A stretch of DNA of 39,655 nucleotides from a virus, in IMG/VR virus record IMGVR_UViG_3300050821_002682, positions 1 through 39,655 of that record; one strand, given 5' to 3'. Of the stretch, positions 1,997 through 39,584 are shown piece by piece (positions within the stretch are counted from its first letter, which is position 1; each line of letters begins with the position of its first letter). The translations under genes were made by a program, and so were the position numbers. Under the pieces are notes generated by a model. It was not told the origin of the DNA and did not search any database. It was given only the letters and a program-made list of their open reading frames with translations.

Positions 1997-3991
1997 TTAA
2001 GATATCCATTCGATGATAATAAGACCATTCGCTCCGGCGCCGCCGCTATAAGGAGTCGATGCACTCGAGCTATTGGCCCCGCCGCCGCCTTGCCCTGGAG
2101 AAGAACCGGGAACACCGTTTACGGAGCTAGGCGCGTTTGTAGTTTGACCAGAAAAATAAGATCCTCCACCAGCCCCGCCAGCGCCATTTACAGAGGCGAA
2201 TGACATTCCTGGACCGCCAGCGCCCCCTCTAACAGACACTACCGTTCCGGCTGTAGTGGTGCTGCCACCAACACCGCCAAAGGTAGGTCCAACTCCGCCC
2301 CCGCTGCTACCAGCGCCCCCAGCGCCACCGCCAGCGACATAGTTCGTACCGCCTAAGCTAAAAGACGTTTGGCTTCCGGATACTCCAGAGGAGCTTGAAC
2401 CAGAACCAACAGGGCCGCCAACGCCAATCGAATAGGTGTAAATGGTGCTCGCAGCGACACCGCTTTGATAAGCGACAATAGTACCTCCGCCACCACCACC
2501 ACCACCACAACCGAATAGACCTATAGCATTCCCACCAGATCCGCCACCACCAACGACGGTTATCTTAAATAAAGTTGAAGTAGTAATGCTCACAGGCGTC
2601 GTCCATGTCGTTGAGCCCAAAGAATTAAGCACTACGCAGTTTAGGTTATAAACACCCCAGCTCATCGTCCCTACGCCATCGATAGACTTAAGACAGGTTC
2701 CATTTCCAACGAAAGAGCTAGGATAAGTTACGCCATAAGCCGTTACAGCCGACGCGACAGAGAAAGTAATCGCGCCGCTCGTCGCTCCTGCATGGTTAAC
2801 GGTTCCATAGAACGTCGAGTTGCCCCCTTGATCCATATCAAGAGCGCGCTGAGCCTTGCCGGTAGCGTTTGAGCGTGTTGCAAAGTGCAGAGACCCATCA
2901 TCATCGCCAGCATTCGCATTATTCTTCGTTGCCCAGATATAGCCATATTCAGTAACTGTCGTCGTGCCTGTAGTCGTAGCGCCAAAAGCGATGCCACCAC
3001 CCGTGCCAGCCGCAATAGCTGACTGCTGAGCGCACAGAAGGTTAAACCTAGCGGCACTTCCAGAGTTAATGGAAGCCGTGACCACGTTTGCTCTGTTGTC
3101 GAAATTGCACTCCGCCGCCTCTTGAGCCGCGACAAAGAACCTAAATGATCCTTGGTTAAAATCATAAACGACAGCAGGAACTCCTGCTGAATTAACGATA
3201 TTAAGACCTAGGGATGTCTGCCCAGATAATCCTTGGATCGTTAAGGAGTTAGTCGCAAGTCCTGAGGAAACAACAAAAAGGCCTGCGTTACCAGACGTGT
3301 TGTTAATACCAACTTGAGTGAAGTTCTTTAAGCCGGTAAATGACTGAGTGGAGGCTACGACAACAAGTCCATTGTTTGCTATAGACGCAGCTTGTAGAAA
3401 TAAGCTGTTTGTGCCAATCACCGCGCCATTGACTGCAGAAGCGTTTGCTCCACCAAGTGCACCAACAAGTAACGGTGTCATGTTAGTGAACGGCAACACA
3501 CCAGAGACTTGAGTTGTAAGACTCACAGAGCCAGCAATGCTACTTAATGGCGGAAGGTTTCCTGCTGGTAAAATGCCAACAACTTGTCCAGTTAGGCTTA
3601 TTGATCCGGTCGTAGCGGTGAGAGAGTTTAAAGGTGTCGGAGTCATATTAGCTAACGGCAAGACGCCAGTAACCTGAGACGTTAAGTTAACGGAACTCAC
3701 CGTCATGTTGCCTGATCCGTCTAGCGATAGCTGAGAATTGGGAGATAGTGAACTGAGATTAGGCGGAGTGTTGAACGTCTTTACGCCGCTGAAAGTCTGA
3801 GATCCAGAGTTAACAAGTCCTGGAAACGTAGGCCCAGCACTTTCTAAGAAGATCGAGTTACTAGATACAGAGGCACCGTTCTGGTTAGGCGTTCCACCAT
3901 CAAGCGTACCAATAGAGAAGGAAACGCTAGAGAGGCCTCCAGAACCACCGCTTCCGCCTGCTGAGGGATATTGGCCGAAAATTCCGCTCAT
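1997..3991 (-). CDS. tail fibre / adhesin with glycine-rich tip
   Basis: 664 residues. The N-terminus is glycine/serine-rich. Residues about 60-180 repeat a V-x-LT-x-QV-x-G-[VI]-LP-x-x-N motif. A beta-rich middle follows, then residues about 480-660 form a glycine-rich domain (VVGGGGSGG, CGGGGGGGG, repeated GGAGG) ending in GLIIIEW. Glycine-rich domains of this kind form polyglycine-helix tips in phage fibres and bind the host surface. The start overlaps the stop of the preceding gene (ATGA at 3988-3991). It is the only long fibre in the genome, so probably the main receptor-binding protein. Confidence 0.88.
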   Translation of the reverse strand: MSGIFGQYPSAGGSGGSGGLSSVSFSIGTLDGGTPNQNGASVSSNSIFLESAGPTFPGLVNSGSQTFSGVKTFNTPPNLSSLSPNSQLSLDGSGNMTVSSVNLTSQVTGVLPLANMTPTPLNSLTATTGSISLTGQVVGILPAGNLPPLSSIAGSVSLTTQVSGVLPFTNMTPLLVGALGGANASAVNGAVIGTNSLFLQAASIANNGLVVVASTQSFTGLKNFTQVGINNTSGNAGLFVVSSGLATNSLTIQGLSGQTSLGLNIVNSAGVPAVVYDFNQGSFRFFVAAQEAAECNFDNRANVVTASINSGSAARFNLLCAQQSAIAAGTGGGIAFGATTTGTTTVTEYGYIWATKNNANAGDDDGSLHFATRSNATGKAQRALDMDQGGNSTFYGTVNHAGATSGAITFSVASAVTAYGVTYPSSFVGNGTCLKSIDGVGTMSWGVYNLNCVVLNSLGSTTWTTPVSITTSTLFKITVVGGGGSGGNAIGLFGCGGGGGGGGTIVAYQSGVAASTIYTYSIGVGGPVGSGSSSSGVSGSQTSFSLGGTNYVAGGGAGGAGSSGGGVGPTFGGVGGSTTTAGTVVSVRGGAGGPGMSFASVNGAGGAGGGSYFSGQTTNAPSSVNGVPGSSPGQGGGGANSSSASTPYSGGAGANGLIIIEWIS

Positions 3992-29074: not shown

Positions 29075-29268
29075 TATTTATCTCCTAGTTTTTCATCAAT
29101 AAAGGCAAAAGACATAAAACTACAATAGGCCATGGCGCTCCCGACTCCAGTTCCCATTCCCACAGACTGTCCAAACCCCGAGTGGTCTATACCCATGTGA
29201 TTAAGAACAAGGCATCCAAGTGCGCCATATAAGGGAATGCATAATAATTTAAGTATTTCTGCTAACAT
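29074..29268 (-). CDS. small membrane protein, 64 aa
   Basis: Two hydrophobic segments: LAEILKLLCIPLYGALGCLV and GVGSAMAYCSFMSFAFI, joined by a glycine-rich loop. ATG 29268 overlaps the stop of the glycosyltransferase-like gene (TAATG). Could support membrane-linked sugar transfer by its neighbours; inference only. Confidence 0.7.
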   Translation of the reverse strand: MLAEILKLLCIPLYGALGCLVLNHMGIDHSGFGQSVGMGTGVGSAMAYCSFMSFAFIDEKLGDK

Positions 29269-30119
29269 TATTCCCCCCGGAATATCGCTCTGACCATTGA
29301 ATTCATTTGATTGTGGGCCATGTTCCTACAAAAGCCACCAGGCACTGCGTAGTCAAGAAGATTTGGAATGTTACTCTCTGCTTCCGTTGGTTCAATCAGA
29401 AAGCATGCATCACTTGATCCGACATACCGCTGTCTACCTCTTGGCACCAGCACATCGCCTGGCCAACAATGGTCGAGGCTATTGAACGTAGGAGCTGATT
29501 CGAAGTAATCAAGATCCTCTTTAGTGAAGTCGATAAGGTATGGAGCAGGTAGTCTGTGGTTAACGCTATAGAGGTTAGGTCCAAGGCGTTCCCATTCAAC
29601 TCCACCATGATATGAAGTGTTGTGAGGCGCGCCACGCTCTGCGTCCACCCATGATCTGTGGAGATATTTGAATGCAAGGTTAACAAGTTCGGCGTTACTG
29701 GTCGGTCGGGCTATCTCATTCATCGCTTCAGGCAATACTCTCATGTGAGGAACCATGACTACAGACCCCTTGTCTTGTCCTATTGTCAGCATGTTACCCA
29801 CTGTGCCATCCCCTAATATCAGGTCTGCTGGCGCTATCAGTAACTTCTCTTCAAGCTCCAGGCATCTTCGCATCTGCCACATAAACGCCGATTGTGCAGG
29901 GTCTATAAACTCCATCAACTCCGATGTAGGACGAAAAAACATACTAACGTTATTCGGAATTAACTCCGATAATTCGTTAAAAAACTTCTCTTCCGTAAAG
30001 ATGTTCCACGTAGAACCTTTTAGCGCCGCTAAATTATTAGGCCATGTCAAAGACCTAAGCGCCGTGTTCTTGAATATCTCTACATGCTTCTCTCCCCAGA
30101 AGTGCGACAATATCTGCAT
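29268..30119 (-). CDS. glycosyltransferase-like protein A, 283 aa
   Basis: Paralogue of 30119-30997. Shared blocks: WGEKHVEIFKNTALRSLTW, WNIFTEEKFFNEL, SAFMWQMRRCLELE, LLIAPADLILGDGTV and VVMVPHMRVLP. The order (opening strand, IFT/IYT strand, then D-G-T-containing segment) resembles a GT-A-like nucleotide-sugar enzyme family I recall as having an A-DGS-like motif near the middle. The reaction is not established. It is coupled to a membrane protein and a two-domain glycosyltransferase operon, so a role in glycan modification of host or virion is likely. Confidence 0.6.
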   Translation of the reverse strand: MQILSHFWGEKHVEIFKNTALRSLTWPNNLAALKGSTWNIFTEEKFFNELSELIPNNVSMFFRPTSELMEFIDPAQSAFMWQMRRCLELEEKLLIAPADLILGDGTVGNMLTIGQDKGSVVMVPHMRVLPEAMNEIARPTSNAELVNLAFKYLHRSWVDAERGAPHNTSYHGGVEWERLGPNLYSVNHRLPAPYLIDFTKEDLDYFESAPTFNSLDHCWPGDVLVPRGRQRYVGSSDACFLIEPTEAESNIPNLLDYAVPGGFCRNMAHNQMNSMVRAIFRGE

Positions 30120-30997
30120 CAGCTGCCCCTGAATGTGAATACTATTTGCGAATTCGCTTTATTATGTGGATCATTCCTATGAAACCCGGTCTTAGGTTGT
30201 CCATCATAGATCGGTGGCACGTTCTTCTCTGGTGCTGTGATCTCGACAATAAACGCTAGATCACTAGACGCTATGTAGCGCTGGCGCCCTTGAGGAACGA
30301 GCATATCTCCTGGCCATCTCCAATCGAAGTGACCAAACGAACAAGCCTTATCGAAGTATTCCATATCCTCTTCAGTGAAGTGAAGCATGTAGGGGCTTGG
30401 AAGCAGATGCTTACCAGTGATAAGTCCATTGACCTTCTTCCACCATATGCCACCCATCCATGAACTCTGATTAGAATGACCTATCTCTGCATGAATCCAT
30501 GACTCGTGTAGGTGAGCCCACGCAAGGCTAACCAGTGGTGCGTTATCTAGAGATAGGTACATAGGTTCAAGATCATCTAAGATAGATGGTGTCACTCGCG
30601 GGTGAGGAACAACAACCACAGAGCCTGGATCTTCTGCTGCACTTAATAATCCTGCAACAGTTCCATCGCCGAATAGAGTATCTGGTGGGGCGAGTAGGAC
30701 CTTGCAGCCCCAGTCTATCGATCTGCGCATCTGCCACATAATAGCGCTCTGGTTCTCGTCGATGTAGTCTCTAAGCACTTCTCTTGATTGTATGTTGTAG
30801 GTGATCTTGGGGTTTAGGTCATGACAGTGATCAAAAAGCTCCTGAACAAATTCTTTATCAGTATAGATGTTCCAAATTGTCTCTTCTTTAATCAAAGAAG
30901 CCTTGTTCTTATCCCATGAGAGGGATCTTAATGCTGTTTGCTTGAAGGTCTCTAGGTAGGGTCTTCCCCAAACGGTGCTCAAGATTTCTAATGCCAT
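30119..30997 (-). CDS. glycosyltransferase-like protein B, 292 aa
   Basis: ATG 30997 overlaps the stop of the CGC-zinc gene (TAATG). It shares with protein A: TVWGRPYLETFKQTALRSLS, WNIYTDKEFVQEL, SAIMWQMRRSIDWG, PPDTLFGDGTVAG and a C-terminal R-N-x-x-H-N pattern (GFHRNDPHNKANSQ). The conserved positions include MWQMRR and L-x-GDGTV, which probably bind the donor. Tandem duplication followed by divergence. Same caution on the exact reaction. Confidence 0.6.
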   Translation of the reverse strand: MALEILSTVWGRPYLETFKQTALRSLSWDKNKASLIKEETIWNIYTDKEFVQELFDHCHDLNPKITYNIQSREVLRDYIDENQSAIMWQMRRSIDWGCKVLLAPPDTLFGDGTVAGLLSAAEDPGSVVVVPHPRVTPSILDDLEPMYLSLDNAPLVSLAWAHLHESWIHAEIGHSNQSSWMGGIWWKKVNGLITGKHLLPSPYMLHFTEEDMEYFDKACSFGHFDWRWPGDMLVPQGRQRYIASSDLAFIVEITAPEKNVPPIYDGQPKTGFHRNDPHNKANSQIVFTFRGS

Positions 30998-31272
30998 TAG
31001 ACTTTCTCCGAAAGAGGCCATCGATGTTTCATCGCAATTAAGACGTTTCTCTTACGAGTTTCAATCGCGAGACATCCACAGGACATAATCTGCCCCTTAA
31101 TTACTAAATGAAGAAGGGCTGTTCTGCGTTTTCCGCAAACGCATTTAAATAGCCAAATAGCGTGCAGGCTTTTGTTAAGCTCGACAAACTTAACAGCCGT
31201 TAAGCGATTATATTTTACACCCTTAGCATTCAATCGTCTTGGCTTGAAGTTGCCGCTTCCAACGCCGCCCAT
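30997..31272 (-). CDS. CGC zinc-site protein associated with HNH families
   Basis: 91 residues from ATG 31272 (TGATG overlap). Pattern YNRLTAVKFVEL...WLFKCVCGKRRTALLHLVIK, then GQIMSCGCLAIET, gives the W-x-C-x-CG...L...G-x-x-x-SCGCL arrangement common in phage DNA-associated proteins near homing endonucleases. The basic N-terminus (GSGNFKPRRLNAKGVK) may bind DNA. No catalytic histidine pair is seen, so it is probably a binding domain. Confidence 0.68.
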   Translation of the reverse strand: MGGVGSGNFKPRRLNAKGVKYNRLTAVKFVELNKSLHAIWLFKCVCGKRRTALLHLVIKGQIMSCGCLAIETRKRNVLIAMKHRWPLSEKV

Positions 31273-32684
31273 CACATGCCCACTTGGAACGTAAATTGTC
31301 CCATATGAGCTACCTGGCAATTTACGTTAATGTACATCGGTATCTTAAGCTTCTTGGCAAGCGCACAGAATGCCCAGTCCTCGCCCTGGTATTTCCCGTC
31401 TACCGCTCCCATTGCGAATATCTCCTTGTGCTTCACATCGTTGTTGTTATCAAAGGCGTAATACTCTGGCACAAGAGGCATCATGAGTTCAATGACTGAA
31501 CGGTCAATCATAATGAAACCAAACCCAGCCTTATCGACTTCTACCTCACCCTTCTTATCCATCGTGGCCTTAGCATATTCCGCATACTCGGCGCTGGACT
31601 TGTTGGAGTGATCTTTAAAGTAATGCCAATGCTTTTCCAAAGGATTGAAGTTTAGATTAATAGGGAAGCGCTTGTGAGGAATAACTCCTGCAATGATTCT
31701 GCGGTTAGACTGGAAGAGCATGAGTGCTGCTTCCTTGCTCCAAATTTGATCCGCATCTACAAACAAAAGACGCTGACATTTAGACTTCATAAACATGTCT
31801 ATGAGGGAGTTCCTGGCATGTGGAATGAGTGATGAGCCAACAACTCTCGCCATTTCGAAGTGCACGTTATTCTTGTTAAGGAATAGGGCCAGGTCAGTAA
31901 GGCCTAGGGCATAGCCGAATGCTACTTGGCCATCGTGTGAGGCTGTCGCGATCATCATGCCTTGGCGCGGTTGTGTAGATATCAATCTTTCAAGCGCCTT
32001 CGGTCCTTCTTTGGCTTTCCAATCATTAAACGCCCTTGTTTCCCCACCGTTAGGAGATGTGGGGTCTTGCCATCCATCTGGATAAACCTTATCGGACGTT
32101 GAATCTTTACCGCGCCCCTTGAATACATGATTATGGTGCACGCAAACATTCATAAGAATCTGAATCGCGCCAGCTTGTCCGCCTAAATATTCCCAAGCGT
32201 CATCTATATAAAGTTGGTTTAGTCCTTCGGGGAACAAATATCCAACCGTTCTCAAGACGTGCCCCGCCCATATTGTGATGCCTGCTAATTTCTGAGGCGC
32301 CATCCATGGACGGGATGGTTCTGGGCCATCGTTACAACCCATTATCATATGATTTCTAAGAGATGCGAGCATGGTCTTGTCGCCGCCCTTAGTGATGATT
32401 CGGTGATCATCATTTATCAAAGCAACATAGTCTAGGTCCTTGTAGTCATTCCATAGCTCACGGCACTTCTCGCCCATCGTTACGCCATTGGTTTGGACTA
32501 TCTTCCAGTTTTTGGGCAGTTCAAGAGCCAGGTAGTCTGCTTCTTTGGAGGCATAATCAGACTTGTCTAGAAGAAGCCAGCCAGGCATCTCCCATTCAGC
32601 TTCCTTGTAGCATTTAAAAAACTCTTTAAGCAGTTCAACGCGGTTGAGTGATGGTAAGAGACAGATTCCTTTATCTATTTTCAC
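31272..32684 (-). CDS. two-domain GT-A glycosyltransferase
   Basis: 470 residues from GTG 32684 (GGAG nine bases upstream); the TTG at 32723 lacks a site and overlaps the HNH gene further. The N-terminal GT2-like domain opens KGICLLPSLNRVELLKEFF, and carries YVALINDDHRI with a DDH metal motif near 92-94, then W-AGH. The second domain starts around residue 240 (GMMIATASHDGQVAFGYALG), with RLLFVDADQIW (DAD near 310-312) and EDWAFCALAKKL near the C-terminus. Both DxD-type motifs suggest two active sites, so it may add two sugars to a phage or host glycan. Confidence 0.85.
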   Translation of the reverse strand: MKIDKGICLLPSLNRVELLKEFFKCYKEAEWEMPGWLLLDKSDYASKEADYLALELPKNWKIVQTNGVTMGEKCRELWNDYKDLDYVALINDDHRIITKGGDKTMLASLRNHMIMGCNDGPEPSRPWMAPQKLAGITIWAGHVLRTVGYLFPEGLNQLYIDDAWEYLGGQAGAIQILMNVCVHHNHVFKGRGKDSTSDKVYPDGWQDPTSPNGGETRAFNDWKAKEGPKALERLISTQPRQGMMIATASHDGQVAFGYALGLTDLALFLNKNNVHFEMARVVGSSLIPHARNSLIDMFMKSKCQRLLFVDADQIWSKEAALMLFQSNRRIIAGVIPHKRFPINLNFNPLEKHWHYFKDHSNKSSAEYAEYAKATMDKKGEVEVDKAGFGFIMIDRSVIELMMPLVPEYYAFDNNNDVKHKEIFAMGAVDGKYQGEDWAFCALAKKLKIPMYINVNCQVAHMGQFTFQVGM

Positions 32685-33159
32685 GCGATTGTTCTCCAAA
32701 GTTTGTGCAGGCGAATTCGCCAAAATGTTTTAATGCGGCCCTATCGTAAGCTTTTGCTGCTTCTTTTTTACAGGTAAAAACACCAAGGTGTACGTGCCTG
32801 CCCTTTAGACATATCTGCGCAACCCAGTTCTTATTATTTTTTATCCATGTTACACCCTTAAGGCCATGAGGATTATCTTTCCTAAGGCGAGTGTTAGCTC
32901 TTTGCTGCGAACCAGTAGCTTTCCTTAGGTTTTCTTTTCTATTGTCAACCTTGTTGCCGTTCTTATGATCAACCTGATATCCGTGTGGGTCACCTATAAC
33001 AAGTCTGTGTAGATAGACCGTCTTATGTTTTCCGTTGACGCGGATGTTTCTTCTCACATAACCAACGCCATCGCACTTCCACCTAAGTTTTCCGTAAACT
33101 TCAAAATCATCATCATCTACGATAGTTTTAACGCCATTAGAGGTAATTATGGTTTTCAA
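32671..33159 (-). CDS. HNH homing endonuclease with AP2 domain
   Basis: 162 residues, preferred start TTG 33159 overlapping the upstream stop (TTGA); an ATG at 33195 also exists. Typical layout: TIVDDDDFEVYGKLRW, GYVRRNIRVNGKHKTVYLHR, then LVIGDPHGYQVDHKNGNKVD and NRKENLRKATGSQQRAN (HNH_3), followed by an AP2-like DNA-binding domain (GLKGVTWIKNNKNWVAQIC...HLGVFTCKKEAAKAYDRAA). A mobile, self-spreading gene lodged between a membrane protein and the glycosyltransferase. Confidence 0.92.
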   Translation of the reverse strand: MKTIITSNGVKTIVDDDDFEVYGKLRWKCDGVGYVRRNIRVNGKHKTVYLHRLVIGDPHGYQVDHKNGNKVDNRKENLRKATGSQQRANTRLRKDNPHGLKGVTWIKNNKNWVAQICLKGRHVHLGVFTCKKEAAKAYDRAALKHFGEFACTNFGEQSRENR

Positions 33160-33317
33160 GGGAAAAGCTTTCGAATGGTTACTATCGGCCCGCATAGAAG
33201 CATGAAAGGAAGTAGGATTATGAAATCAAGAGGGTTTCGCATCTCATTATAGCGCAACATGTAATCCATGAAGTGGAACAATCCAAAGAAGAACCAAACG
33301 CCTAAGAATAAACTCAT
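33156..33317 (-). CDS. 53-residue membrane protein
   Basis: Short gene with an ATGA overlap at 33314-33317 with the VRR-NUC stop. Two hydrophobic segments: MSLFLGVWFFFGLFHFMDYM and DFIILLPFMLLCGPIVTI, joined by a charged loop (LRYNEMRNP), then RKLFP. Good start linkage, clean topology, and the stop overlaps the HNH-AP2 TTG. Function unknown. Confidence 0.7.
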   Translation of the reverse strand: MSLFLGVWFFFGLFHFMDYMLRYNEMRNPLDFIILLPFMLLCGPIVTIRKLFP

Positions 33318-33649
33318 GCCACCCACCCCAATTGTTTAAAATATTTCTCAAGCTGTTCTACGCTTCTAATCACAAGAGCCACGCCACCACGAGACCTAAC
33401 GTCATCTAGGAACAAGACCTGTTCGGGCGATAGCTTACCCTTGGCACTCTTGATTTCGAGTGCAAAAAACCGGCCTTCGTGAAGGCCAAGAATATCTGAA
33501 ACGCCTTTACGGTAGAGTGGAGATGGCTTACGGAACTTACCCAGGCGTTGATCGTAAGTGCCGATAGTTTTTATCTTTACGCCAAGGATGGATTTAAACT
33601 TGAGCCATGTGAGAACATGGTTCTCAATCTGCTTTTCTAGAACTCCCAT
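33314..33649 (-). CDS. VRR-NUC domain nuclease
   Basis: 111 residues from ATG 33649 after GGGGGAG. The stand-alone VRR-NUC domain has E5/E9 (MGVLEKQIENHVLTWLK), G49-V-S-D52, E65-I-K67 (FFALEIKSAKGK), then SPEQ with Q77. This is the GxxD...E-x-K...Q core of PD-(D/E)xK nucleases that cut branched or nicked DNA, likely used for Holliday-junction or recombination-intermediate processing in place of a phage resolvase. Confidence 0.9.
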   Translation of the reverse strand: MGVLEKQIENHVLTWLKFKSILGVKIKTIGTYDQRLGKFRKPSPLYRKGVSDILGLHEGRFFALEIKSAKGKLSPEQVLFLDDVRSRGGVALVIRSVEQLEKYFKQLGWVA

Positions 33650-33671
33650 TTGGTCTCCCCCCGGAGAAAAA

Positions 33672-34121
33672 CTACACAATCTCTTCTAGAGAAGAGTATT
33701 GGAATGACGCGCAGCGCTTGTTTTTAACTGTCCACCTATCAAGAGCCAAGAGCCTAATCCGTATGTCGTTAGTTGTTTTTATGGCGGATTCCCTGTCCCT
33801 GGTCAAAATAACTGTCTCTAGATACGGAGTTGGAGTATCTCTATAGTCAAGCCAAAGGCGAACTCTCGCTTCCTTGTAATATGCCCCATATCCATCGTCT
33901 CTGATATTACGAACCGACCCATCCTTATTCATGTCTACGCCAATAGATGTTTTAATGTTCTCTGTAAAATCAACGATAGGATCAATTTCGTATTCTTCAG
34001 CGGAGTAGTCTTCGCCAGCCCTCTCACCAATCCACCTATCCGCCAGTTCTCTAGTGGAGAAGACATGGTTAATGCGGTAGTCTGAGTAACATCCAGACGT
34101 TACGATATATATCTTAGCCAC
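33672..34121 (-). CDS. DUF7336-like protein
   Basis: 149 residues from GTG 34121 (MAKIYIVTSGCYSDYRINHV, then FSTRELADRWI); GGAG seven bases upstream. The opening [KM]-x-Y-[IV]-V-T-[ST]-G-x-YSDY is the signature of a phage family of unknown function. It is overlapped by the preceding gene by 8 bases. The rest is mixed alpha/beta with several arginines (KEARVRLWLDYRD). Confidence 0.8.
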   Translation of the reverse strand: MAKIYIVTSGCYSDYRINHVFSTRELADRWIGERAGEDYSAEEYEIDPIVDFTENIKTSIGVDMNKDGSVRNIRDDGYGAYYKEARVRLWLDYRDTPTPYLETVILTRDRESAIKTTNDIRIRLLALDRWTVKNKRCASFQYSSLEEIV

Positions 34122-35562: not shown

Positions 35563-35952
35563 CTAAAAAGGAATTTCATCAGCATTAAACCCAGGATCTC
35601 CACTTTCGTAGAGACTTGGGGCTGGCTCAAGCTGATCATACTTGGAGCCAGGAGATTGTCTGGTGTGATCTACATAGTCCTGTCTCTGTTGCTGATCCCT
35701 TGGGATAATCCGTGGGCGCTCTGCAGTCTGAGGCTGCGGCCTTGGAGTTATCTTAGGTGCCCGCGTGGCTTGTGCCTGTGGCTTCGCAGGATAGCCTGTG
35801 GCAGGTCTTGCCTCACGCTCGCAGTAACTAACCTCGATATTGCCCTCAGAGTCCTGGAAGGCCAACAGATCGACGTTACCGTATGGTGCGACCCAATATT
35901 GTTTCCCCTGCTTTGATGTTTTGATTCTTAGTGTAAAAGCCTTTATCTTCAT
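35563..35952 (-). CDS. SSB-like protein with acidic C-terminal tip
   Basis: 129 residues; AGGAG five bases upstream of ATG 35952. N-terminal strand-rich part KAFTLRIKTSKQGKQYWVAP, then GNVDLLAFQDSEGNIEVSY, followed by a proline/glutamine-rich disordered linker, and the C-terminal tip GFNADEIPF. A disordered linker ending in D/E-I-P-F is the hallmark of single-stranded DNA-binding proteins that recruit partners. The N-terminal part is too short for a classical SSB OB-fold, so it may be a specialised or reduced SSB. Confidence 0.6.
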   Translation of the reverse strand: MKIKAFTLRIKTSKQGKQYWVAPYGNVDLLAFQDSEGNIEVSYCEREARPATGYPAKPQAQATRAPKITPRPQPQTAERPRIIPRDQQQRQDYVDHTRQSPGSKYDQLEPAPSLYESGDPGFNADEIPF

Positions 35953-36133: not shown

Positions 36134-36452
36134 CGAGTCCCATTGTACCGTCTCTGATTCTTGCAAGGGCGTGCTTGATGGTCGTTGCACGATTGCGCTT
36201 GTCCTGTTGTCTGGCAAGGTCGGGATGGTCTCTCCTGAATATCCTTCTTTCTTCATTAATACGCTCCCTGTTCTTATTCTTCCATTCGACTTGAGCCCTG
36301 CGATACTTTTCCTTATTCGCATGGTATCTAGCTAAGACATCAGCCCTCTCCTTAGCCCTAAACTCTGGATCTAGACGCTGCTTACGCCTATGAGACCTAC
36401 ACCTCTCCTTATAGGCCTCTAGTTCAGCAGGCGTTCTTTTTCTTCTACCCAA
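36060..36452 (-). CDS. very basic phage protein, 130 aa
   Basis: TTG 36452 with GGTG four bases upstream. Arg/Lys/Glu-rich repeats: KRTPAELEAYKERCRSHRRK, ARYHANKEKYRRAQVEWKNK, NRERINEERRIFRRDHPDLA. This composition occurs at the N-terminus of phage HNH proteins, but no HNH centre follows, so it may be a truncated homing protein or an independent DNA-coating protein. Confidence 0.65.
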   Translation of the reverse strand: MGRRKRTPAELEAYKERCRSHRRKQRLDPEFRAKERADVLARYHANKEKYRRAQVEWKNKNRERINEERRIFRRDHPDLARQQDKRNRATTIKHALARIRDGTMGLDELNKRINKALIRLDDRVRSKESK

Positions 36453-36455
36453 GGT

Positions 36456-36749
36456 TCACCAAAGTGTCCGATAACCGCTTTTAGTACAAAGCAGTAAGTG
36501 TTGCGCCATTGGCTCAATCAAAACATAACCAGATGGCATTTCAATTGCTATAAAATCATCACATCTACGGTTCTTTTCCACAGGCTTACATTGAACTGAA
36601 TTCCTTTTAGTTATTTGGCATTTCTTAACCTCAAAAGAATAAGCGCGAGACCCTTTCGTAGCCCATATGTCCGGCCCGTTAGCGTTCGACTTTCCTGGTG
36701 CAAGAGGCTTAAATCCATTAAGCCGAATGGCGCGCAGGACATTTTTCAT
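36456..36749 (-). CDS. PD-(D/E)xK-like protein, 97 aa
   Basis: ATG 36749 overlaps the preceding stop (TAATG). Core: NGFKPLAPGKSNANGPDIWA with D27, then RAYSFEVKKCQ with E40 and K42, Q53, and a strand FIAIEMPSGYVLI. The GPD...E-x-K spacing fits a minimal PD-(D/E)xK fold, seen in small resolvase- or restriction-like proteins. A third nuclease of this fold in the genome, but the shortest and least certain. Confidence 0.6.
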   Translation of the reverse strand: MKNVLRAIRLNGFKPLAPGKSNANGPDIWATKGSRAYSFEVKKCQITKRNSVQCKPVEKNRRCDDFIAIEMPSGYVLIEPMAQHLLLCTKSGYRTLW

Positions 36750-36988
36750 TACAATAGCCCTGCGCATATCTCGATCTTGTCCGCCGTATTCATGTTCGAG
36801 TTAAGAACACTCTGAATCAGAGGATTCTCTTTATAGGCGCGTGCAACCTTCGCCGATTTATAATCGCTGACATATTCATAATAACTATTCGCTCCAACCT
36901 TGGCCTTCTTTAAAGCGAAGGCTAGGGTCTTACCTTCATCAACCAGTAGTTTTGCATATTCGCATTTCTCAATTGTGCTGCTTCTCAT
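36749..36988 (-). CDS. HTH-like protein, paralogue 1, 79 aa
   Basis: MRSSTIEKCEYAKLLVDEGK, then TLAFALKKAKVGANSYYEYV, ending in IEICAGLL. It aligns by eye with 37305-37571: [ER]-C-x...[LD]-x-EG...A-[FY]-x-KAK-[VL]-[GS]-x-[SN]-x-YY-x-Y. Both end AGLL. A helix-turn-helix DNA-binding role is likely. ATGA overlap with the IS66-Orf2-like gene. Confidence 0.7.
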   Translation of the reverse strand: MRSSTIEKCEYAKLLVDEGKTLAFALKKAKVGANSYYEYVSDYKSAKVARAYKENPLIQSVLNSNMNTADKIEICAGLL

Positions 36989-37308
36989 TTGCTCTTCTCC
37001 TTTGTTGTTGTTCCTAACTTCTGCTCTAGAGACTTTCTAATGGCCTCATTCATTTCTGTAGGACTTCCACCAAACACCTGTGGTAAATACTTTAACGCGT
37101 CTAGTGGTATAGGCCCATGATCACTCTTATAAAACACCATGTACTTATCGGCTAGCATTTTAAATGCTGTCCTTTTTCGGTTAATAAACAGGATTACGGT
37201 AGTCGGTGAGCTGTTACCGATTGCTACCTTAGCACTCGCCATAACTTTATTCAGACCATCGAAGTTCTGTCTCATGTCAACGTCTAGGTAAACTCTAGTT
37301 ATCCTCAC
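36985..37308 (-). CDS. IS66-Orf2-like (TnpB-like) protein, 107 aa
   Basis: GTG 37308 overlaps the preceding stop (GTGA). RVYLDVDMRQNFDGLNKVMA, then TTVILFINRKRTAFKMLADK, follows the IS66 family second-ORF pattern: [RK]-[VI]-[YW]-L-x...DMR-x-x-F-[DN]-GL...G-x-[LV]-F-x-F-x-x-[RK]-[RK]-x-x-x-[KI]-K-x-L-x-x-D. Family length is about 115. IS66 transposase (Orf3) is absent and no inverted repeats flank the gene, so this is likely a domesticated or phage-native relative. Confidence 0.65.
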   Translation of the reverse strand: MRITRVYLDVDMRQNFDGLNKVMASAKVAIGNSSPTTVILFINRKRTAFKMLADKYMVFYKSDHGPIPLDALKYLPQVFGGSPTEMNEAIRKSLEQKLGTTTKEKSK

Positions 37309-37571
37309 AGGAGACCTGCAAGCACAGACTTAATACTTTCTGCAGAACACACGATAACTGCGATGTTATTAGGCTTAGATGGCTGAACAAGGTCAACGAA
37401 CTTAGGCTTAACCGTCTTCTTTACCTTCTTTGATTTACCCTGGTCTTGAAGATAGGTGTAATATAACGAGCCTGATAGCTTAGCCTTCTTGTAGGCATCT
37501 TTCTTACTCATACCCTCCGATAGATATCCATCTACCAGCTTACATCTCTCTATTACTGATTCCGATTGCAT
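37305..37571 (-). CDS. HTH-like protein, paralogue 2, 88 aa
   Basis: ATG 37571 after AGGAG (seven-base spacing), inside the end of the Cas4-like gene. MQSESVIERCKLVDGYLSEG, then MSKKDAYKKAKLSGSLYYTY, a basic linker, and the end SIKSVLAGLL. Same fold and ending as 36749-36988. The two paralogues bracket the IS66-Orf2-like gene. Confidence 0.7.
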   Translation of the reverse strand: MQSESVIERCKLVDGYLSEGMSKKDAYKKAKLSGSLYYTYLQDQGKSKKVKKTVKPKFVDLVQPSKPNNIAVIVCSAESIKSVLAGLL

Positions 37572-38427
37572 TGGACTGCTCCTTGATTGTTTGTTGATAA
37601 ACGCTACAAAACTTGTTTACAGGACAATATGACGTACAGCGCCTAGCCTCACCGCGCCTTGCCTCGATTCGGTCCCCTGCTCCGTTAGCCAAATAATCTT
37701 GTGCCTCGATGAGAGAATCGACCAGCTTAACAGCTCTCTTGTTACTCCCCTTCATGACTGCGAACTTGCTAGGCGAAGACCACTTCTCTTCATCCGAACA
37801 ATAGGGAAGATTAACTTCTGCAGATAAGTGAAGCCTAATGCGATCTTCGATAAACGCCGTCGTTTCTTCTCTAGACCACATAACGATATCAGCCGTAGCC
37901 ACCTGGAACTTAGGGTAATTAGGATTGTTCTTAGACTCTCTTAAGTTAAAGTCCCTCAATATCCCAACGATCTTAAGCTCTCTAGCGTCAAGACCATTCA
38001 TGCGAAGAAGCATAAGCTGCATGTTTAACTGCTGCACCCACTCAGGCTTTGGCGGGTTATCCTTAAGGAAACCCCAAGCTGTGGTCACTTTATAATCGGA
38101 CAGCACACCGCTATCTAGGTCTAGGGAATCGATCTGAGCCGATACCGTATATTTGCCGAACTTACCGAAATACCGCTTTTCAGCTATGGCCCTCTTATCG
38201 TCGTTCGCTCTCTCTAATATGGTGTGCACACTTTGCCCCAGCAGTGACCAAACACGGTCCCCTACGTCTTCCTCTATTTCCTCTGCGTGTTTTAACTTTA
38301 AAGCCCTGATCCGTGGAGGCTGAAGAAGTTCGGTCACACTAAAGTCCGACTTACCCTTGGTGTACGGATCTGAGCTGATGGCCCTGAAGAGAGCGTTAGG
38401 CAACTGCATTTTATTGGTCAGTTTCAT
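37540..38427 (-). CDS. RecB/Cas4-like PD-(D/E)xK exonuclease with Fe-S cysteines
   Basis: 295 residues. Nuclease core: GQSVHTILER with H68, VSAQIDSLD with D100, GVLSDYKVTT with D111-Y-K113, and QQLNMQLMLLR with Q133/Q137. Four cysteines fit a 4Fe-4S cluster: NLPYCSDEEKW and, near the C-terminus, RRCTSYCPVNKFC (C-x3-C-x5-C). This is the Cas4/AddB-type arrangement in stand-alone phage exonucleases used in recombination or to make 3' tails. First well-identified enzyme of the leftward accessory region. ATGA overlap with the preceding start-less frame. Confidence 0.88.
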   Translation of the reverse strand: MKLTNKMQLPNALFRAISSDPYTKGKSDFSVTELLQPPRIRALKLKHAEEIEEDVGDRVWSLLGQSVHTILERANDDKRAIAEKRYFGKFGKYTVSAQIDSLDLDSGVLSDYKVTTAWGFLKDNPPKPEWVQQLNMQLMLLRMNGLDARELKIVGILRDFNLRESKNNPNYPKFQVATADIVMWSREETTAFIEDRIRLHLSAEVNLPYCSDEEKWSSPSKFAVMKGSNKRAVKLVDSLIEAQDYLANGAGDRIEARRGEARRCTSYCPVNKFCSVYQQTIKEQSNAIGISNREM

Positions 38428-38663
38428 TTGGCCCAGTTCTCCACAGCTTCCCTGAAGAAGAAATGCGTGTCGATTTTATCTACTATTTCCTTTTGAATAT
38501 CCTCAGAAAGAGAGAAGAAATCAAGAATAACACCTTCTTTAAAGAGATAGAAGGTGCCGCTATTTTCAGCTTCTACCGTTATCTTGTCATTATCTAATTG
38601 GTATTCGAAACTATATGGTTTTACGATAACCTCTCCAATTGTTGGAATAATTAGAGAGATATA
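38424..38663 (-). CDS. protein-like frame lacking ordinary start, up to 79 aa
   Basis: Open frame ending with TGA (38424-38426) that overlaps the nuclease ATG (ATGA), the linkage used by real genes here. It reads VKPYSFEYQLDNDKITVEAE, NSGTFYLFKEGVILDFFSLS and ends FREAVENWAK, convincing protein. No in-frame ATG, GTG or TTG is present. A GGAG (around 38633-38636) lies eight bases before GTA 38624. The bounds given are the open frame; the initiator may be ATT, ATC or GTA, or the start was lost. Confidence 0.5.
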   Translation of the reverse strand, partial: YISLIIPTIGEVIVKPYSFEYQLDNDKITVEAENSGTFYLFKEGVILDFFSLSEDIQKEIVDKIDTHFFFREAVENWAK

Positions 38664-38703
38664 TCAGAAAAATATTAAGTCAAATCAAAAGAATCGAGAA
38701 TGC

Positions 38704-39330
38704 TTAGAAACTACTCAATTGCGAAAGATTTCCGTTGAATATGTTTAAATCAACGTCACCTGTTATTCCTGGACACTTCCCATTACTCGCCTTTTGCCAC
38801 ATCTTCCAATTACTCCATGGCTTTGGAACACTAGGGGCCGTTACCTCGTAATTCGCCACCCAAAGAGGAAAACGAGAGAATGCAGGAGGATTACCAATAT
38901 CGTTAATAAAACCAGGAGAACAATAGATAATAGGTGTCTGGTTTGTTGCTACTTCTACCTGATTTAAAAAGGATAAAGCAGAGACAATCTGTTGGTTTGG
39001 ATTAACCCCACCATGATTCTCGAAATCAAGAATAAGAGGAAAATCAGCTATACTAATTGGAAGAACAAGGCCTAAGAAGTGCTTCGCTTGCGCAATAGGG
39101 TCTTGATCTGGATGAAAGAAATGATAGGCGCCACGCTTAATCTTCCATTGATCACACGCGGCCCAGTTGGACTTGAAACTAGGGTCTACACCTATAGATC
39201 CATCACTTGCTTTCATGATTACGAAGCCAATGCCTGTAGCCTTCACCTCTTGCCAACTAGTGACGGGCGTCCAATGGGATATATCTATTCCGTTAACAGT
39301 CTCAGGGCCTGGTGGAACTCTTAAAGTCAT
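38704..39330 (-). CDS. GH25 lysozyme (endolysin)
   Basis: 208 residues from ATG 39330, six bases after GGAG. Muramidase of glycoside hydrolase family 25: GIDISHWTPV with D16, GFVIMKASDG, RGAYHFFHPDQDP, then LILDFEN with D102 and E104 as the catalytic pair, PIIYCSPGFI and PLWVANYEV. No signal peptide and no extra wall-binding domain, so export relies on the upstream holin-like protein. GH25 endolysins are found in phages of both Gram types. Confidence 0.93.
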   Translation of the reverse strand: MTLRVPPGPETVNGIDISHWTPVTSWQEVKATGIGFVIMKASDGSIGVDPSFKSNWAACDQWKIKRGAYHFFHPDQDPIAQAKHFLGLVLPISIADFPLILDFENHGGVNPNQQIVSALSFLNQVEVATNQTPIIYCSPGFINDIGNPPAFSRFPLWVANYEVTAPSVPKPWSNWKMWQKASNGKCPGITGDVDLNIFNGNLSQLSSF

Positions 39331-39353: not shown

Positions 39354-39584
39354 TCATTTCTTAGGTTCAGTAGGATAGGCTGTCGGCTCATGCATCTGGA
39401 AGAAAAAATGTCCTGCCAAAACACCAGCCAAGAAGGCAATACCAGGAGCTTGTACCGAGTAACGGAAGATAGTCGCTGACTCGGTTGATGGGTTACCGTT
39501 ATAATAGTAGGTCCATAAGTCATAGATTATCCAAATGATCGGTGTTCCAAGCACGACAAGTCGAGTCAACCATTGATATTTCAT
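39354..39584 (-). CDS. holin-like membrane protein
   Basis: 76 residues. Two membrane segments: WLTRLVVLGTPIIWIIYDLW (about 5-24) and IFRYSVQAPGIAFLAGVLAG (about 39-60), with a short polar C-terminus (HEPTAYPTEPKK). It immediately precedes the lysozyme gene, the typical class II holin place. ATG 39584 lies in the terminal repeat and overlaps the HNH stop, so the gene is continuous with position 1-95 of the window. Confidence 0.78.
   Translation of the reverse strand: MKYQWLTRLVVLGTPIIWIIYDLWTYYYNGNPSTESATIFRYSVQAPGIAFLAGVLAGHFFFQMHEPTAYPTEPKK

Follow-up and report, generated by a model that had tools for sequence, protein, structure and literature searches.

A diverged IS66 TnpA–TnpB-like gene pair conserved without a transposase in phage records

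The locus and its gene row

The window is a linear virus record of 39,655 bases that encodes a terminase, a portal protein, a major capsid protein and an endolysin. On its minus strand, downstream of an exonuclease gene, lie three small overlapping genes in the order A, B, C, at the coordinates that the original prediction had given. Gene A (37305..37571, 88 aa) is an open reading frame for an HTH protein, the putative partner resembling IS66 TnpA, and is laid out as an N-terminal three-helix HTH followed by a C-terminal segment, NNIAVIVCSAESIKSVLAGLL. Gene B (36985..37308, 107 aa, with a GTG start) encodes a protein resembling the TnpB (Orf2) of IS66, and gene C (36749..36988, 79 aa) encodes a window-specific paralogue of A that lacks the strand-like AVIVC segment. 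The upstream gene (37540..38427, minus strand) belongs to a phage exonuclease family (phrog_2139, E 1e-47), and the downstream gene (36456..36767, minus strand) is weakly similar to Holliday-junction resolvases (Hjc, E 0.085; phrog_6591, E 0.02).

The overlap between A and B is 4 nt (GTGA), as is that between B and C (ATGA); in addition, A shares 32 nt with the exonuclease ORF, and C runs into the ORF that follows it. Clear Shine–Dalgarno sequences (AAGGAG) precede A and C, and the start of B is preceded by GCAGG within the 3' end of A. Translational coupling of the three genes had been proposed; the overlaps are present, and coupling may be expected from them. The AGLL tail common to A and C is encoded over GCAGG (GCAGGTCTCCTGTGA and GCAGGGCTATTGTAATG), so that it doubles as a Shine–Dalgarno-like stretch for the next gene and by itself is weak evidence of kinship. 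Counts of promoter and terminator consensus sequences are at chance level.

Several other genes of the window were noted. A 129-aa protein without family matches (35563–35952) ends in NADEIPF, similar to the acidic tip of single-stranded DNA-binding proteins, and a protein with a VRR-NUC nuclease domain is encoded at 33314–33679 (Pfam 4e-5, just over its cut-off; phrog_93, 1e-16). Phage glycosyltransferase families match both halves of a 483-aa protein at 31272–32723 (phrog_14945 and phrog_34859; also phrog_1574), and two neighbouring proteins (29268–30119, 283 aa, and 30119–31021, 300 aa), evidently alike, have no Pfam match. A holin candidate is the 76-aa membrane-type protein (39354–39584) encoded before a GH25 endolysin; the related record G001 contains a weak relative of it (27%).

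Gene B and the IS66 TnpB family

IS66 elements use three proteins, TnpA, TnpB and TnpC; what TnpA and TnpB contribute to transposition is, to our knowledge, unexplained. An IS66-Orf2 pattern had been read from the 107-residue product of 36985–37308, and alignment bears this out: the motifs VDMRQNFDGL and LFINRKRTAFKML of B align to VDMRKQFDGL and VFINRKRTMMKIL of Vibrio cholerae IS66 TnpB. The pairwise score with this protein is 79, against a shuffled maximum of 50 (p ~2e-8), and four plasmid IS66 TnpB proteins score 72–83 points against a maximum of 50 among 2000 shuffles each, with pairwise p values for the window protein of ~1e-7 to 2e-8 overall. A tblastn search of plasmids with B returned several annotated IS66 TnpB genes with weak E-values.

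The profile check suggested with the original prediction gave an E-value of 0.0012 for B against Pfam TnpB_IS66 (PF05717), its 19.1 bits not reaching the gathering cut-off of 26.6, and an E-value of 0.0018, under the curated cut-off, against NCBIfam IS66_TnpB (NF033819); each is the sole family listed for B in its library. The phage relatives of B described below score higher with the Pfam profile, two remaining below the cut-off (L002, 8.8e-5, 22.8 bits; L004, 1.5e-4, 22.1 bits) and L042 alone of the four proteins exceeding it (1.6e-6, 28.4 bits). Comparison of the B family as a profile with nine genuine IS66 TnpB sequences produced E-values of 5.4e-10 with three phage sequences and 1.2e-10 with four (hhalign), the three-sequence profile scoring 57.1, whereas the highest of 100 column-shuffled controls reached 19.3. 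The significant part of this match covers residues 9–61.

B thus shares with IS66 TnpB (PF05717, NF033819) the DMRxxFxGL and FxNRxxTxxK blocks, a length of ~100 aa and a place after an HTH gene. However, the KRLExGR block of the C-terminal half, whose K, R and E are invariant in the genuine IS66 TnpB sequences aligned, is absent from all four phage proteins, which share a C-terminal block of their own, IPLxAxxYLPxxFGGxxxxMxEAIR, and are not linked to a transposase. An AlphaFold2 model of B is of the alpha/beta type (mean pLDDT 77.6). Searches with this model of the PDB and of viral models returned nothing beyond weak rows (best Z 3.9; all Foldseek E-values 0.001 or above), a result compatible with a known fold as well as with a new one, and a profile search revealed no convincing solved relative of TnpB. 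Sequence comparison identifies B as a true, though diverged, homologue of TnpB_IS66, and this homology is well supported.

Conservation of the A–B pair

Pattern scans, which reach fairly close sequences only, identified relatives of B in three distinct lineages (L002, L004 and L042) in five IMG/VR records, at 37–47% identity; with the window phage, the lineages total four. The first three share a common locus and hence represent one phage group. In all three, an HTH gene lies immediately 5' of the B homologue, in the order of IS66 tnpA–tnpB. The A and B ORFs are intact in four lineages, and the two genes overlap in three of the four, by 4 nt in the window and L002. None of L002, L004 and L042 encodes a counterpart of C, which is a window-specific addition outside the conserved core, so that of the HTH–Orf2–HTH module originally proposed the pair is conserved and the trio is not.

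Other searches yielded no further relatives. A near-identity search of phage records with 20 kb of the window and a tblastn search of phages with B gave no match, and two pattern routes through bacterial and archaeal genomes found no relative of B, the three hits there being unrelated proteins. The pattern IPLDA..YLP led to seven new contigs and FGG....MNEA to four, all encoding unrelated proteins. A search with A alone was also empty, so that relatives of A were reached only via the neighbouring B.

In L002, L004 and L042 the pair heads an operon divergent from the terminase genes, whereas in the window it is internal to a gene row, between the exonuclease gene (phrog_2139) and the weakly resolvase-like gene. 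The pair keeps its own order in these two unrelated settings, as would be expected of a functional unit. A palindrome, ATTGCAAT (within TATTGCAATnnGA), is conserved in the three lineages in the region separating the HTH–TnpB pair from the terminase operon (L002, 4679–4686; L004, about 1706; L042, in the intergenic region 3590–3717) and is possibly a promoter element or an operator; no site of this type was found upstream of the window operon. A small CxxC-rich (zinc-ribbon-like) protein overlaps the TnpB-like gene at its end in L002 (5260–5469) and L004 (2288–2503), with 71% identity between the two, and is missing beside the pair in L042 and the window.

The kinship of A and C, also part of the original prediction, holds at 35% identity (BLASTP E 6e-8, with 0/2000 shuffles as high) and survives removal of the AGLL tail (p ~6e-7). 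AlphaFold2 places helices of A at residues 4–18, 23–29 and 34–43, with pLDDT values of 87–92 in the blocks spanning residues 11–40, and A is accordingly predicted to fold as a three-helix HTH. The Mu transpososome was the top Foldseek row for A, at an E-value of 1.5 too weak to be used as evidence. A resembles IS66 TnpA (Orf1; NF047593, HTH_Tnp_1 PF01527) in its small size, its N-terminal HTH and the place of its gene immediately before that for TnpB. Window A itself had no match to NF047593 in the NCBIfam search, and the HTH partners in the other three lineages match HTH_Tnp_1 (0.0016–0.014) and IS66_ISAeme5_TnpA (0.0007–0.015) under the cut-offs, the scores for the latter being 16.0 (L002), 15.7 (L004) and 20.0 bits (L042) against a cut-off of 28; IS66 TnpA is among the top two NCBIfam matches for these partners. 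A profile of the A family matches IS66 TnpA with an E-value of 7e-6 over the HTH only, a comparison that covered this one HTH family, so that it indicates a 'transposon-type HTH' and not uniquely TnpA. A common C-terminal pattern of the A family, D[IL]-x(n)-hydrophobic strand-C-x(n)-helix, looks by eye like the end of IS66 TnpA. Given the gene order before a TnpB-like gene, TnpA is the natural reading of A, which weakly resembles it via its relatives.

The IS66 transposase domain (PF03050, DDE_Tnp_IS66) is absent from the window record and five related records (G000–G005); control genomes were positive in the same search. The records are linear and may not be complete, so that a transposase could lie on sequence that they do not contain. 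As noted in the original prediction, the transposase is missing: PF03050 is present in 0/6 records of the pair, against 6/6 phage records with an ordinary IS66 TnpB. Complete IS66 elements in phages (for example, Pseudomonas phage Marin and Escherichia phage 4A7) have the same tnpA–tnpB order and 4-nt overlap but carry tnpC (6/6 records) and a high-scoring TnpB, in contrast to the strongly diverged A–B pair without tnpC. No inverted repeats of at least 12 nt closely bracket the module within 36300–38800; the inverted-repeat pairs found there either have one arm inside A or at the start of A, or are located in the exonuclease gene. The A–B element is therefore not an IS66 insertion sequence, its transposase and ends being missing from the records, and conservation of the pair without a transposase is supported.

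Gene-by-gene comparison of the window phage with G001 and G003, the latter only a 15.4-kb fragment, shows B to be by far the best-conserved protein (45–47% identity, E 1e-29 to 1e-33). The only other BLAST matches, both weak and both in G001, are the portal and a small membrane protein; the terminase and capsid gave no BLAST match. For B, pN is 0.16–0.43 and pS 0.75–0.96, with synonymous sites near or past saturation; pN far below a saturated pS indicates that purifying selection acts on B. The evolution of A is faster. Either horizontal transfer of the pair or exceptionally strong constraint could account for this pattern of conservation.

A possible role as an early DNA-binding complex

The reading we favour, with a probability of roughly 0.6, is that A and B are a diverged, transposase-free IS66 TnpA–TnpB pair, either domesticated from IS66 or ancestral to it, maintained for a phage function as an early DNA-binding complex. 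Homology, pairing, the lack of the transposase in the records and purifying selection acting on B come from the analysis directly; the DNA binding by A, the A–B complex and its role are added by inference. A would recognise DNA through its HTH and hold B via the conserved C-terminal strand–helix; B, as the TnpB-like protein of predicted alpha/beta fold, would complete the early-expressed complex. This complex may regulate or organise phage DNA without cutting or joining it, acting in early transcription or on replication or recombination intermediates. C, as a second copy of A without the putative B-docking strand, would perhaps act as a modulator that pairs with A but does not recruit B. The neighbouring exonuclease favours a role in DNA metabolism in the window phage and the operon-head position favours regulation in the other lineages; a regulator and an architectural or recombination accessory factor are both compatible with the data, and we do not rank them. 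Points against the favoured reading are the scores of window B below the curated cut-offs, the lack of KRLExGR in the B family, the restriction of the A–TnpA match to the HTH, a widespread motif, the lack of a structural match for B and the linear, possibly incomplete records.

An alternative that overlaps with this reading, and that we regard as unlikely, is that the pair forms a conventional phage repressor or transcription switch that regulates its own expression: A would bind DNA as the regulator, with B as a co-regulator or as a partner that senses a ligand, and the IS66 link would be ancient and irrelevant to function. The position of the pair in L002, L004 and L042 at the head of an operon divergent from the terminase, with the palindrome in all three promoter regions, fits such a switch; however, the palindrome may be a mere part of the promoter, it is not found upstream of the window operon and the window pair is internal to a gene row. 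Less probable again is a host take-over or anti-defence module of small early proteins that bind host targets, with the HTH as a protein-binding relic. The early position, the small overlapping genes and the conservation of B across otherwise unrelated phages, as can occur for mobile counter-defence genes, would suit it, whereas Pfam, NCBIfam and PHROGs, general libraries of which none is dedicated to anti-defence, gave no pointer to it and the HTH helices of A are predicted with good confidence. That the pair is a decaying, now functionless relic of an IS66 insertion whose tnpC and ends have been lost is very improbable: IS66 elements do insert in phages and the genes stand in the order of IS66 orf1–orf2, but the ORFs are intact in four lineages, three of them with a common locus, B is the best-conserved protein against the two relatives compared, with non-synonymous change strongly constrained, and no inverted repeats like IS ends flank the module.

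The literature search, which most subscription papers lay outside, returned no description of phages that carry IS66 accessory genes but lack the transposase. The favoured reading, a transposase-free TnpA–TnpB pair retained for a phage function, would make A–B an example of phages recruiting accessory proteins from a transposon. A further, speculative possibility that we consider doubtful is that the TnpA–TnpB pair is an autonomous two-protein DNA-binding system with a phage function of its own and that IS66 arose by, or still depends on, joining it to a DDE transposase; if the pair is autonomous, as ancestor or partner of IS66, the phage branch shows what it does alone. The transposase-free phage branch offers a clean system for TnpA and TnpB activity (DNA recognition, mutual binding and regulation) apart from transposition. 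The pair seems to perform an independent task and could shed light on the function of the unexplained IS66 proteins.
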